The notes beneath the pieces are model-generated. The model had not been told where the DNA came from. It saw only the letters and a list, made by a program, of their open reading frames with translations, and did not search any database. A stretch of DNA of 21,541 nucleotides from a virus: positions 14,520-36,060 of the IMG/VR virus record IMGVR_UViG_3300029448_000154; one strand, 5' to 3'. Shown here one piece after another: positions 998 to 6,790 of this stretch (positions are counted from its first letter, which is position 1; the number at the start of each line of letters is the position of its first letter). Position numbers and translations under genes: made by a program.

Positions 998-1325
998 ATA
1001 TATTTTTATAGATTCAACAAAAACTCCAATAAACCTAGATATTACTAAAGAACAAATTGATGCGCAGCATCGTAAACAAGGATTACTAGGTATTGGTTAT
1101 CATTTCATTATTACTATTGATGGTGATGTTAAAAAAGGAAGACACGTAGATCAAATAGGTTTTAACCTTAATGATGATAAAGGCGAAACAATAGGAATAG
1201 CTTTAGTTGGCCATAAAAAATTTAATGAGCTGCAAACCAAAGCATTAAACAAATTAGTTAACGACTTAATACTTAAGTACGGACAACTACAAATTAAATC
1301 AACAATAAGAGAGTTAGGAATATGA
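924..1325 (+). CDS. T7-lysozyme-like (amidase_2 fold) protein, probably catalytically dead
   Basis: A protein of about 133 residues related to T7 gp3.5, the N-acetylmuramoyl-L-alanine amidase that also binds and inhibits phage RNA polymerase. The match is clear in LLGIGYHFIITIDGDV (residues 54-69; T7 has a GYHFII-type strand), in the following KGR, and in GIALVG (91-96). The zinc site is missing: where T7 has His17 in FVHCSAT this protein has Asp30 in FIDSTKT, and the chain stops at RELGI before the His122 and Cys130 positions. Start is uncertain: the frame is open from a TTG at 828, deep in the endonuclease gene, but the ATG at 924 gives an N-terminus of T7-like length. The stop overlaps the next ATG (ATGA). 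It may survive as an RNA polymerase regulator; that is inference. Confidence 0.7.
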   Translation: MQKKQYPKSGLLKQTSGLKNRQSTKYIFIDSTKTPINLDITKEQIDAQHRKQGLLGIGYHFIITIDGDVKKGRHVDQIGFNLNDDKGETIGIALVGHKKFNELQTKALNKLVNDLILKYGQLQIKSTIRELGI

Positions 1326-1795
1326 AAATTATTTTAGAAGGACCTGACTGTGCAGGTAAAACAACACTAGCAACAGCATTAAAAGGTAAATTAACTGATT
1401 ATCTTTATATACATCATGGTCAATACAAGCACGCGTACAAACCACATTTAGAAAGTTTAAAATTAGATAGTGTAATTATAGATAGGCATTGGCCAAGTGA
1501 ATTAATCTACAGCACTATATTTAGAGGTGGTCCAGCTTACAACATAAATCAAATGGAACAGCTAGCTAGAAAAGATGTAAATAATAAATTTATATTATGC
1601 TTACCACCTAAAGCAAAAGTTCTTTCAAGATTTGAAGAAAGAAGAAAAGAGGGTGATGAAGATTTTGACAGTGTTGGAAAAGTTTATGATGCGTATGTTT
1701 TATTAAAAAACATGTTTCCATACTTTACAATTTTTAATTATGCGGAGGAAAATACTGATGAGTTCATTAAAAAAGAAATCTATGAGCAAAAATAA
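1322..1795 (+). CDS. P-loop deoxynucleoside monophosphate kinase
   Basis: A 157-residue P-loop kinase of the thymidylate kinase/dNK-like type, which would phosphorylate a (deoxy)nucleotide in the cytoplasm using ATP. Visible motifs are a Walker A GPDCAGKTT (residues 7-15), a DR-x3-S substrate motif DRHWPSE (54-60), the strand FILCLPP (90-96), and an Arg-rich LID-like segment RFEERRKEGDEDFDS (103-117). It is shorter than cellular thymidylate kinases (about 210 residues), as usual for phage versions. The ATG overlaps the previous stop and is preceded by TTAGGA. The next gene encodes a thymidylate-synthase-fold enzyme, so the pair likely acts in sequence on the same nucleotide, perhaps a modified dCMP. 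The exact substrate cannot be read from sequence. Confidence 0.75.
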   Translation: MKIILEGPDCAGKTTLATALKGKLTDYLYIHHGQYKHAYKPHLESLKLDSVIIDRHWPSELIYSTIFRGGPAYNINQMEQLARKDVNNKFILCLPPKAKVLSRFEERRKEGDEDFDSVGKVYDAYVLLKNMFPYFTIFNYAEENTDEFIKKEIYEQK

Positions 1796-2606
1796 AACTG
1801 AAGAAAAACCTAAAATAAATTCTACAAGTATATTGTGGTTGTCGTTATTAAATATGATTAAACAATGCCCAACAGTATCACCAAGAGGTATTGAAACAAA
1901 AGAGCAGTTATGTGTATCAACTAAAATTAATATGAACGAACCAATGGTTAATATAAAATCTAGAAAAATAGGTCAAAAATTTAGATTTGCAGAAGCAGCT
2001 TGGATATTAAGTGGTGATAATAGAGTTAAAACAATAGCACCATTTTCTAAAATGATTACAAAATTTAGTGATGATGGTGTTAGATTTTTTGGAGCTTATG
2101 GTGTTAAAGTAGTAGATCAATTACCATACATAATACAAACATTAAAAGATGATCCGTCATCAAGACAAGCAGTAATTAATATATGGCGTGAAAATCCTAG
2201 AAAATCTAATGATGTACCTTGTACATTAAGTTTACAATTTTTAATTAGAGATAATCAATTAAATTGTATGGCTACAATGAGGTCAAGTGATGCTTGGCTT
2301 GGTTGGGTTTATGATGTTTATAATTTTTCAATGATTTCCTTGTATGTGTTGTTACAATTAAAGAGCCAACATAATGTTAAGTATGATTTAGGTCATCTGT
2401 ATTTAACTGTTGGCTCTCAGCATTTGTACAAGCAGCAGTTTGAACAAGCACAAGTTTGTTTAGAAAAAGCTGATTACTTTGAAGATGAAAAATCACCTAC
2501 ATATTTAAAAGATGGTGAACAATTAATTAATTTGTTGTGGCAAAAAGCTTTACAAAATGAAGATGAAACACAACAGCAACTAGTTTTAGATGGTATGCGA
2601 TCATAG
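1758..2606 (+). CDS. Thymidylate-synthase-family enzyme, dCMP hydroxymethylase-like
   Basis: A 282-residue ThyA-fold enzyme that would add a one-carbon unit from methylene-tetrahydrofolate to C5 of a pyrimidine monophosphate. It has the folate/catalytic Glu (AEAAWILSG, E79), SSRQAVI (134-140), the nucleophile Cys155, MRSSDAWLG (174-182) and VGSQHLY (218-224). Two positions differ from true ThyA: Cys is followed by Thr rather than His (PCT, not PCH), and the residue matching E. coli TS Asn177, which selects uracil, is Asp186 (GWVYDVYNF). T4 dCMP hydroxymethylase has the same CT and an Asp there. dCMP hydroxymethylase or dCMP methylase is therefore favoured over thymidylate synthase. ATG 1758 is chosen for GGAGGA at 1744-1749; an in-frame ATG at 1740 lacks this. 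Overlaps the kinase gene by 38 nt. Confidence 0.8.
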   Translation: MSSLKKKSMSKNKTEEKPKINSTSILWLSLLNMIKQCPTVSPRGIETKEQLCVSTKINMNEPMVNIKSRKIGQKFRFAEAAWILSGDNRVKTIAPFSKMITKFSDDGVRFFGAYGVKVVDQLPYIIQTLKDDPSSRQAVINIWRENPRKSNDVPCTLSLQFLIRDNQLNCMATMRSSDAWLGWVYDVYNFSMISLYVLLQLKSQHNVKYDLGHLYLTVGSQHLYKQQFEQAQVCLEKADYFEDEKSPTYLKDGEQLINLLWQKALQNEDETQQQLVLDGMRS

Positions 2607-4612: not shown

Positions 4613-6345
4613 TGAATTATATTTTAGACTTAGAGTGCGATAACTTATTAGATAAAGTTACAAAAATACATTGTATAGTAATAAAAGATATTAATACTGA
4701 TGAAGTATTTACAGACTTAAATGTTTGTGTTGAAAAAATTAAAGATGCAAAAATGTTAATTGGTCATAACATCATAGCATTTGATATTCCTGTTATAGAA
4801 AAAATATTAAAGTTTAAACCTAAAGCTGAGCTGTTTGATACACTAGTAGCAACTCGTTTAATATTTGCTCATATAAAAGAAATTGATTTTAAATTAATGC
4901 ACAATGGTTTTCCTAAAAATTTAATAGGTTCACAATCATTAAAAGCTTGGGGACATAGACTTAAAGAGCACAAAGGAGAAAAGCCTCAATCATGGGACAC
5001 ATTTACTCCAGAAATGCTTATGTATTGCGAGCAAGATGTTCATGTAACACATAAACTTTATAACAAAATATTAAGTAAAGAATATTCAGATGAAGCTTTA
5101 AACTTAGAACACGAAGTACAATTATTATGTACACAAATGATGGCTAACGGTATTGGCTTTGATACTAATGCTGCTAAAAAATTATACTCAAGTTTATCAG
5201 ATGAAAGAGAAAAACTAGGATTTCAGTTACAAAAATACTTTCCACCTTGGATTGAAGAAACACAATTTATTCCTAAACGAGATAATAAAAAAATGGGTTA
5301 CAAAGCAGGTATAGCTTTTATTAAAAAGAAAGAAATACAATTTAATCCAAACTCAAGAGATCATATTGCTTTTAGATTAAAAGAAAATCGTAATTGGAAA
5401 CCAAAAGAATTTACACCTGATGGTAGAGCTAAAGTTGATGATGAAATTTTAAAAGAATTACAGTGGCCAGAAGCTAAAGTATTATCAAGATATTTTATGA
5501 TACAAAAACGTATAGCTCAAATAGCAGAAGGTAATAATGCATGGTTAAAATTAGAAAGAAACAATAGAGTTTATGGTTCAATAAATATTAATGGTGCTAT
5601 TACAGGAAGAGCTACACATAGTAATCCTAACTTAGCACAAGTTCCTGCAGTAATTTTAGAATATGGTCCTGAGTGTCGTTCATTATTTTGTGCAAGTGAA
5701 GGTCATGTATTAGTTGGAGCTGATATGTCACAAATAGAATTACGAATATTAGGTCATTATATTTCTGCTTATGATGGTGGTGAGTACGCTGATGATGTTA
5801 TTAATGGAGACATACATACGAGAACACTACAAGCATTAGGTTTAAAACAAGAAGAAAGATGGCTTGCAAAAAGATTTATGTACACATTTCTCTATGGCGG
5901 GGGTGGAAAGAAACTAGGTGAAGTAATGGGTACAACTACTGAAGAAGGTTTTAAATTAAAAGATAAGTTTTTAAAAAAGATACCTGCACTTAAAAAGCTA
6001 GTAACTAAAGTACAAGAAGTTTCAGCTAACGGTGACATTGGTGCACTTGATGGTAGACGAGTATTTTGTAGGTCACAACATAGTGCATTAAATAGTTTAT
6101 TACAAAGTGGAGCTGCTATTGCTAGTAAGTATTGGATAGCAGAATGTAAATCATTTTTAAATGAAGACTGTAAATTAGTTGCATGGATCCATGATGAATT
6201 AATATTAGAAGTTAAAAAAGGTAAAGAAGATTTTGTTAAACAAGAAGTAATAAAAGCTATCGAAAGAGCTGGAGTTAAATCAAAACTTAGAGTTCCACTT
6301 ACTGGAGATAGCAACATTGGCCACACCTGGAAAGCAATACATTAG
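4612..6345 (+). CDS. Family A DNA polymerase with 3'-5' exonuclease (T7 gp5-like)
   Basis: The 577-residue replicative polymerase. The exonuclease domain has motif I DLECD (D6, E8), motif II GHNIIAFD (D58) and motif III YCEQDV (D142), so proofreading should work. Polymerase motif A is VGADMSQIELRI (D371, E376), motif B is AKRFMYTFLYGG (K420, Y424, Y428) and motif C is WIHDEL (D528, E529). The residue matching E. coli Phe762 / T7 Tyr526 is Tyr424, as in T7. It is 127 residues shorter than T7 gp5. Much of the difference is in the thumb: only about 30 residues (213-244) stand where T7 carries its long thioredoxin-binding insertion before FNP-SRDHI. Its processivity mechanism may therefore differ. 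Preceded by AAGG; overlaps the HNH gene by 29 nt. Confidence 0.97.
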   Translation: MNYILDLECDNLLDKVTKIHCIVIKDINTDEVFTDLNVCVEKIKDAKMLIGHNIIAFDIPVIEKILKFKPKAELFDTLVATRLIFAHIKEIDFKLMHNGFPKNLIGSQSLKAWGHRLKEHKGEKPQSWDTFTPEMLMYCEQDVHVTHKLYNKILSKEYSDEALNLEHEVQLLCTQMMANGIGFDTNAAKKLYSSLSDEREKLGFQLQKYFPPWIEETQFIPKRDNKKMGYKAGIAFIKKKEIQFNPNSRDHIAFRLKENRNWKPKEFTPDGRAKVDDEILKELQWPEAKVLSRYFMIQKRIAQIAEGNNAWLKLERNNRVYGSININGAITGRATHSNPNLAQVPAVILEYGPECRSLFCASEGHVLVGADMSQIELRILGHYISAYDGGEYADDVINGDIHTRTLQALGLKQEERWLAKRFMYTFLYGGGGKKLGEVMGTTTEEGFKLKDKFLKKIPALKKLVTKVQEVSANGDIGALDGRRVFCRSQHSALNSLLQSGAAIASKYWIAECKSFLNEDCKLVAWIHDELILEVKKGKEDFVKQEVIKAIERAGVKSKLRVPLTGDSNIGHTWKAIH

Positions 6346-6790
6346 TAGAAATTTAAGTGGTAGAGTTTTAACCCGTGGTTATACAGAAAATGGTTGGACT
6401 TATTTAGATTTAAGAACTCGTAGGTCTAGAATTAGTGAACGTTGGGTTAGATCTAGTTACTACAAAACAATATGTATTACTCAAGCTTGGCAAGCATCGC
6501 AGCGTAGAGCTAAAAGAAAAAAATTAACACATACAATTACTTTGTTACAAGTAATTAAATTATATCCTAAAGATCACAAATGCCCTGTTTTTAAAACACC
6601 TTTAATATTTGGTGGTGGTCTAAATAAATTTTCTCCATCACTAGACAGAATAAATAATTTAAAAGGTTACGTTAAAGGTAACGTTCAATGGATTTCAGCA
6701 CGAGCTAATACTCTTAAACGAGATGCAACTGCGAAAGAACTATACACACTTGCAAAATATATATCAACAATCAACAAAACAAAAATATGA
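6317..6790 (+). CDS. HNH-type (His-Me finger) endonuclease
   Basis: A 157-residue protein whose C-terminal half has the phage HNH-like pattern: CP-x4-PL (C89 to L96), PSLDRINN (107-114), GYVKGNVQWIS (117-127) and AN-x2-K-x2-AT-x2-EL (130-142). Such free-standing nucleases nick or cut DNA and often act as homing endonucleases; T7 has a related gene (5.3) just after its polymerase. The N-terminal half is basic and Arg-rich and may contact DNA. There is no in-frame ATG in the ORF. The TTG at 6317, with GGAGATAG at 6304-6311, is the best start and overlaps the polymerase by 29 nt. The canonical first His of HNH is not obvious, so activity is uncertain. Confidence 0.75.
   Translation: MATPGKQYISRNLSGRVLTRGYTENGWTYLDLRTRRSRISERWVRSSYYKTICITQAWQASQRRAKRKKLTHTITLLQVIKLYPKDHKCPVFKTPLIFGGGLNKFSPSLDRINNLKGYVKGNVQWISARANTLKRDATAKELYTLAKYISTINKTKI

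Follow-up and report, generated by a model that had tools for sequence, protein, structure and literature searches.

A predicted dCMP 5-hydroxymethylase and an adjoining kinase suggest a two-gene cytosine-modification pathway in a T7-like phage of SAR11

The DNA analysed here (the window, 21,541 nucleotides) corresponds to positions 14520-36060 of G000, a viral record of 36,060 bases, and carries two overlapping genes which, judging from their sequences, are best explained overall as a dCMP 5-hydroxymethylase and a kinase that would feed 5-hydroxymethylcytosine into phage DNA, a reading we hold with good though not full confidence. Support from outside the window comes from the conservation of the pair, from fuller cassettes in other phages, from the restriction-resistant DNA of phage AXL3 and from a non-orthologous replacement of the enzyme that keeps the same substrate-selecting residue. 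The record is 93% identical to Pelagibacter phage HTVC119P across 99% of the length and 85% identical to HTVC200P, both of them T7-like SAR11 phages assigned to Autographiviridae/Votkovvirus, and the window's phage is a T7-like pelagiphage. Its gene order is also T7-like (integrase, RNA polymerase, SSB, endonuclease I, amidase, kinase, ThyA-like gene, primase/helicase, DNA polymerase, exonuclease). An ORF of 157 aa without Pfam match overlaps the end of the DNA polymerase gene (6317-6790), and the equivalent place in Votkovvirus S28C10 is annotated as an endonuclease. The features of the pair are as follows:

1322..1795, plus strand: P-loop dNMP kinase of the thymidylate-kinase superfamily, 157 aa (P-loop GPDCAGKT, DRHWPSE motif, basic lid RFEERR)
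1744..1748, plus strand: GGAGG ribosome-binding site within the kinase gene, read from the sequence, 9 nt before the ATG at 1758
1758..2606, plus strand: predicted ThyA-fold dCMP 5-hydroxymethylase (profile matches; alignments with E. coli ThyA, T4 gp42, SPO1 gp29 and AXL1 gp63)
2163..2165, plus strand: codon of Arg136, at the MilA Lys133 position by alignment; Arg in deoxyribonucleotide-using enzymes (PMC5175136)
2211..2213, plus strand: codon of Asp152, equivalent to T4 Asp145 and E. coli ThyA Leu143 (alignments; PMC6400193)
2220..2225, plus strand: codons of the nucleophile Cys155 and of Thr156, equivalent to T4 Cys148-Thr149 and E. coli Cys146-His147 (alignments)
2283..2285, plus strand: codon of Ser176, at the MilA Ala176 position by alignment; Ser indicates a deoxyribose substrate (PMC5175136)
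2313..2315, plus strand: codon of Asp186, the residue that chooses cytosine and not uracil, aligned with E. coli Asn177 and T4 Asp179 (PMC8670742, PMC6400193)

An earlier note, made from the letters alone, had described the P-loop kinase ORF as adjacent to and overlapping a ThyA-fold gene that would be labelled thymidylate synthase by default. The ORFs are as described, and thymidylate synthase is indeed the GenBank name of the protein in HTVC119P and HTVC200P, while the kinase is a hypothetical protein in HTVC119P. The first ATG in the ThyA-like frame lies at 1740, but 1758 is the better start since GGAGG stands 9 nt upstream of it and the HTVC119P annotation begins at the equivalent codon; the overlap with the kinase gene is then 38 nt. 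Both genes are under purifying selection, as indicated by dN/dS values against HTVC200P of 0.17 (ThyA-like gene) and 0.15 (kinase). The ThyA-like protein matches Pfam Thymidylat_synt (E=1.9e-22), and its closest solved relative by sequence in the PDB is the CMP hydroxymethylase MilA (E=9e-23). The kinase has a short core, with a P-loop-to-DRH stretch much shorter than that of cellular TMP kinases. In T4, a phage dNMP kinase (gp1) likewise follows the dCMP hydroxymethylase gp42, although the window's kinase is TMK-like. The gap between the ThyA-like gene and the primase gene (2607-2850) looks like a structured RNA: its MFE z-score is -3.1 with 0/200 shuffles as stable, and 11 relatives show 83% column identity with 15/47 consensus pairs changed on both sides. 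No Rfam match was found for it, even at E up to 1.

The active site argues for a cytosine-directed enzyme. In alignments with E. coli ThyA, T4 gp42 and AXL1 gp63, the residue at position 177 (E. coli numbering) is Asp and not Asn, Asp186 falling on E. coli Asn177 and T4 Asp179, while Cys155-Thr156 falls on E. coli Cys146-His147 and T4 Cys148-Thr149. Both changes, and their occurrence in T4 gp42, had been claimed in the earlier note, as had the motifs shared with T4, which are found as MRSSDAWLG (174-182) and VGSQHLY (218-224). Two features go beyond that note: Asp152, and the lack of the synthase-like C-terminal folate-closing tail (APVAI-like), the protein ending in ...QLVLDGMRS. In the ternary complex of the T4 enzyme, Asp145 activates a water molecule, where E. 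coli ThyA has Leu143, and the T4 enzyme is also without the C-terminal tail (PMC6400193). This position is the best single discriminator between hydroxymethyl and methyl transfer, and positions 177 and 147 were the two best residue markers for modified-cytosine contigs in MetaGPA (PMC8670742). The full signature of the window's enzyme (Asp at 143, Cys-Thr, Asp at 177, tail absent) is that of T4 gp42, whereas thymidylate synthases have LxxCH with Leu at 143 and Asn at 177, the SPO1/SP8 dUMP hydroxymethylases have DxxCN with Asn at 177, and the Xp12-type enzymes, represented in our alignments by AXL1, Elanor and PaMx28, have NxxCP with Asp at 177 and a tail. The catalytic framework (Glu79, Tyr114, Arg175, Asp178, His222 and Tyr224) is invariant in the alignment; Glu79 and Tyr114 are the equivalents of T4 Glu60 and Tyr96, and T4 Ser94 is replaced by Gly112. 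Over its whole length the window's enzyme shares only about 22% identity with T4 gp42, and it has no equivalent of Trp80. We regard the ThyA-like protein as a predicted dCMP 5-hydroxymethylase. Modified phage DNA is probable, given the T4-type active site and the adjoining nucleotide kinase gene, and 5-hydroxymethyl-dCMP would be the substrate of that kinase.

MilA, from the mildiomycin pathway, shares Asp186 with the window's enzyme but prefers CMP owing to Lys133 and Ala176 (PMC5175136). A ribonucleotide hydroxymethylase was rejected, since Arg136 and Ser176 are residues of the deoxy type and point to dCMP rather than CMP. As for the product, the alternative that survives best is an Xp12-type dCMP methylase leading to 5-methylcytosine, as contained in Xp12 DNA (PMC7653180, PMC9206674). 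Such enzymes share the ThyA fold, Asp177 and the cytosine target, and work cited in PMC8670742 is described there as showing that Asp177 on its own redirects E. coli ThyA towards dCMP, the product being methylated. They have, however, Asn143, Pro147, a C-terminal tail and neighbouring DHFR and deaminase genes, and they fall in a different clade. The window's enzyme has Asp and Thr at the two positions and is without the tail, and no DHFR was found in its genome. We find a methylase unlikely, and 5-hydroxymethyl-dCMP is the better prediction and more likely product in view of Asp152, the missing tail and the lack of a DHFR match in G000. The latter is also consistent with a reaction that does not consume tetrahydrofolate. 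The sequence evidence thus agrees with the pairing first proposed, a dCMP-modifying ThyA homologue with a dNMP kinase partner, and narrows the product to the hydroxymethylated nucleotide.

A scan of viral contigs returned 248 relatives, of which 80 were kept, and the family alignment comprises 73 distinct sequences. All 73 have Asp at 177 and Asp at 143, and position 147 is Thr in 71 and Ser in 2. The peptide patterns used to fetch the relatives contained DxPCT or MRSSD, so the constancy of Asp143 and Thr147 is partly due to selection; Asp177 was absent from those patterns, and was included in one pattern of the cellular-genome scan. Cellular genomes gave no match with a near protein as query, while the family alignment as query gave 11 loci spread over various bacterial genomes or MAGs, of which none was labelled SAR11. 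One genome, Brevibacillus panacihumi W25 (L112), has two neighbouring ThyA-like genes of the family (at 5978 and 7923); the active site of one is disturbed (HMPCST, SDTHTYS), and the other has DIPCT/YDV.

Besides the window, HTVC119P and HTVC200P, the kinase-hydroxymethylase pair lies between amidase and primase in 38 T7-like IMG/VR contigs, in all of which the kinase is directly upstream wherever the contig covers the region. About 45 non-T7 loci usually have the order (methyltransferase)-NTP pyrophosphatase (PRA-PH)-kinase-hydroxymethylase-dCMP deaminase-PolA. In the tree the T7-like set is a single group (support only 57/91) that falls within the cassette forms, which suggests one acquisition, with the flanking genes lost afterwards, and the kinase, hydroxymethylase and primase distances correlate within the T7-like phages (r 0.88-0.92). 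A PRA-PH gene is present in some T7-like relatives (L047, L054, L057), and a third T7-like arrangement, hydroxymethylase-kinase-NTPPase (L166, L168, L169), has DxxCT and Asp177. The T7-like kinases have 157-184 aa; those of most non-T7 cassettes (L017 7004-7987; L059-L100) are longer, at about 310-360 aa, and contain an additional region at the C-terminus. Upstream of the NTPPase, most non-T7 cassettes also have a gene for a SAM-dependent methyltransferase (L017 5635-6459 and equivalents), which may serve further modification of 5hmC or its nucleotide.

The nearest characterised relative is Stenotrophomonas phage AXL3, whose modification is known solely as restriction resistance: of 37 enzymes, only 2 cut its DNA, both recognising sites of A and T alone, whereas C/G-containing sites resist cutting, and the best published match of its ThyA homologue is HTVC200P, with 44% identity (PMC7504290). 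AXL3 (gp27-gp31), Pseudoxanthomonas phage PW916 and the Manatee Spring phages have the residues of the window's enzyme in a homologue (about 40-46%), and a homologous kinase lies upstream of it. Unlike the window, the AXL3 cassette adds an NTP pyrophosphatase, a dCMP deaminase and a SAM methyltransferase, and the kinase ORFs of AXL3 and PW916 (about 330-360 aa) have the extra C-terminal region that the window's kinase lacks.

The earlier note had seen no glucosyltransferase or dCTPase in the window. In profile searches this holds for the rest of the genome too, including the search for a dCTP pyrophosphatase suggested there, and for HTVC119P and HTVC200P. G000 gave no dCMP deaminase, PRA-PH pyrophosphatase or DHFR. 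In the complete genomes of HTVC119P and HTVC200P there was no PRA-PH match, and no dCTPase, other pyrophosphatase family, deaminase, glucosyltransferase or other 5hmC-capping enzyme was found by Pfam among the hypothetical proteins. The window's phage, T7-like and integrase-bearing, differs from T4 in these respects. With no dCTPase found, partial replacement of cytosine is to be expected unless the host dCTP pool is exhausted, and complete, T4-like replacement looks unlikely without a dCTPase, dCMP deaminase or glucosyltransferase in the genome. The same lack of a dCTPase in the three genomes would suit a role of 5-hydroxymethyl-dCMP in pool control or defence evasion, in which dCMP/dCTP is diverted and little of the product enters virion DNA. 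We consider this quite improbable, as the conserved kinase partner points to incorporation, full cassettes elsewhere adjoin a DNA polymerase gene and AXL3 DNA is restriction-resistant (PMC7504290).

An ordinary thymidylate synthase, raising the dTMP supply together with an adjoining TMP kinase, is what the GenBank annotation implies; the ThyA and TMK family matches and the dTMP demand of an AT-rich genome are in its favour. It was nevertheless rejected, and we give it very little credence, since position 177 is Asp instead of Asn and position 147 Thr instead of His. The NCBIfam cut-offs for thymidylate synthase are also far from reached (best 67 bits vs 327), no dCMP deaminase was found to supply dUMP, and AXL3 has a separate ThyX beside its homologue of the window's enzyme (PMC7504290). 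A dUMP hydroxymethylase making 5-hydroxymethyluracil DNA as in SPO1/SP8 was likewise rejected and is scarcely credible: in the tree those enzymes lie closer to the window's enzyme than T4 gp42 does, and they have Asp143 and the missing Trp80 in common with it, but they keep Asn177 and have Asn147, while the window's enzyme and every aligned family member have Asp177.

For the predicted dCMP 5-hydroxymethylase, Cys155 would attack C6 of dCMP while Asp186 holds and protonates the cytosine. Methylene-tetrahydrofolate would donate the carbon, and a water molecule activated by Asp152 would complete the group as CH2OH, leaving tetrahydrofolate. The overlapping kinase would then phosphorylate 5-hydroxymethyl-dCMP, host nucleoside-diphosphate kinase would provide the triphosphate, and the phage polymerase would incorporate it, giving DNA that contains 5-hydroxymethylcytosine. 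The dCMP would likely derive from host DNA, after its breakdown by T7-type endonuclease I and exonuclease of the phage. No ribonucleotide reductase was found in HTVC119P, HTVC200P or S28C10, and one is encoded by HTVC021P, HTVC120P and Eistla, all without the pair. In this small sample of T7-like pelagiphages, ribonucleotide reductase and the kinase/ThyA module are thus distributed in a complementary way, which fits, without proving, a salvage route that supplies the hydroxymethylase with dCMP released from host DNA.

The slot of the pair is occupied by a different module in sister phages. Votkovvirus S28C10 (AP013540), whose polymerase, primase and endonuclease are 64%, 68% and 71% identical to those of the window, has in this slot, besides an NTPPase and a dCMP deaminase, a kinase homologous to the window's (42%) and a ThyA that shares only 25% identity with its counterpart there. 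L131, L134 and L135 have a kinase with 79-81% identity to that of the window, followed downstream by a further ThyA, at 22% identity to the window's and 33% to that of S28C10, and by an NTPPase. The ThyAs of these four phages are non-orthologous to the window's, at about 20-25% identity, and have Asp at 177, Leu at 143 and Tyr (as in S28C10) or His at 147; Asp177 with Leu143 is the pattern expected for dCMP methylation. The repeated pairing of Asp177-type enzymes with this kinase in one slot is the strongest genomic sign of a cytosine target and of a kinase that serves the modified nucleotide. The NTPPase of L135 (5724-6167) ends in KQLVLDGMQS, near-identical to the QLVLDGMRS of the window's hydroxymethylase (2570-2606), although the two proteins are unrelated; the common tail could be the scar of an in-frame recombination or a docking peptide used by both. 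A broader proposal, to which we give slightly less than even weight, is that integrase-bearing T7-like SAR11 phages have a cytosine-modification slot between lysozyme/amidase and primase, in which the kinase is kept and the modifying enzyme swapped, the window's hydroxymethylase alternating with an unrelated and independently dCMP-directed ThyA branch in its sisters. Their genomes would then alternate between 5-hydroxymethyl- and 5-methylcytosine, fed by recycled host dCMP and not by a ribonucleotide reductase of their own.

In the literature searched, there was no report of base-modified DNA in T7-like SAR11 phages, nor of a cytosine-hydroxymethylase pathway in T7-like phages. The window's phage probably has modified DNA built through a pared-down two-gene pathway. 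If so, the name thymidylate synthase in HTVC119P and HTVC200P is a misnomer, and the pathway, for which no dCTPase was found, would lend itself to tests in cultured pairs of phage and host. SAR11 bacteria rank among the most abundant in the sea, and their phages are correspondingly common. A streamlined host would then be confronted with phages carrying 5hmC, and the exchange of modifying enzymes next to a constant kinase would offer a natural experiment on arms races over base modification.
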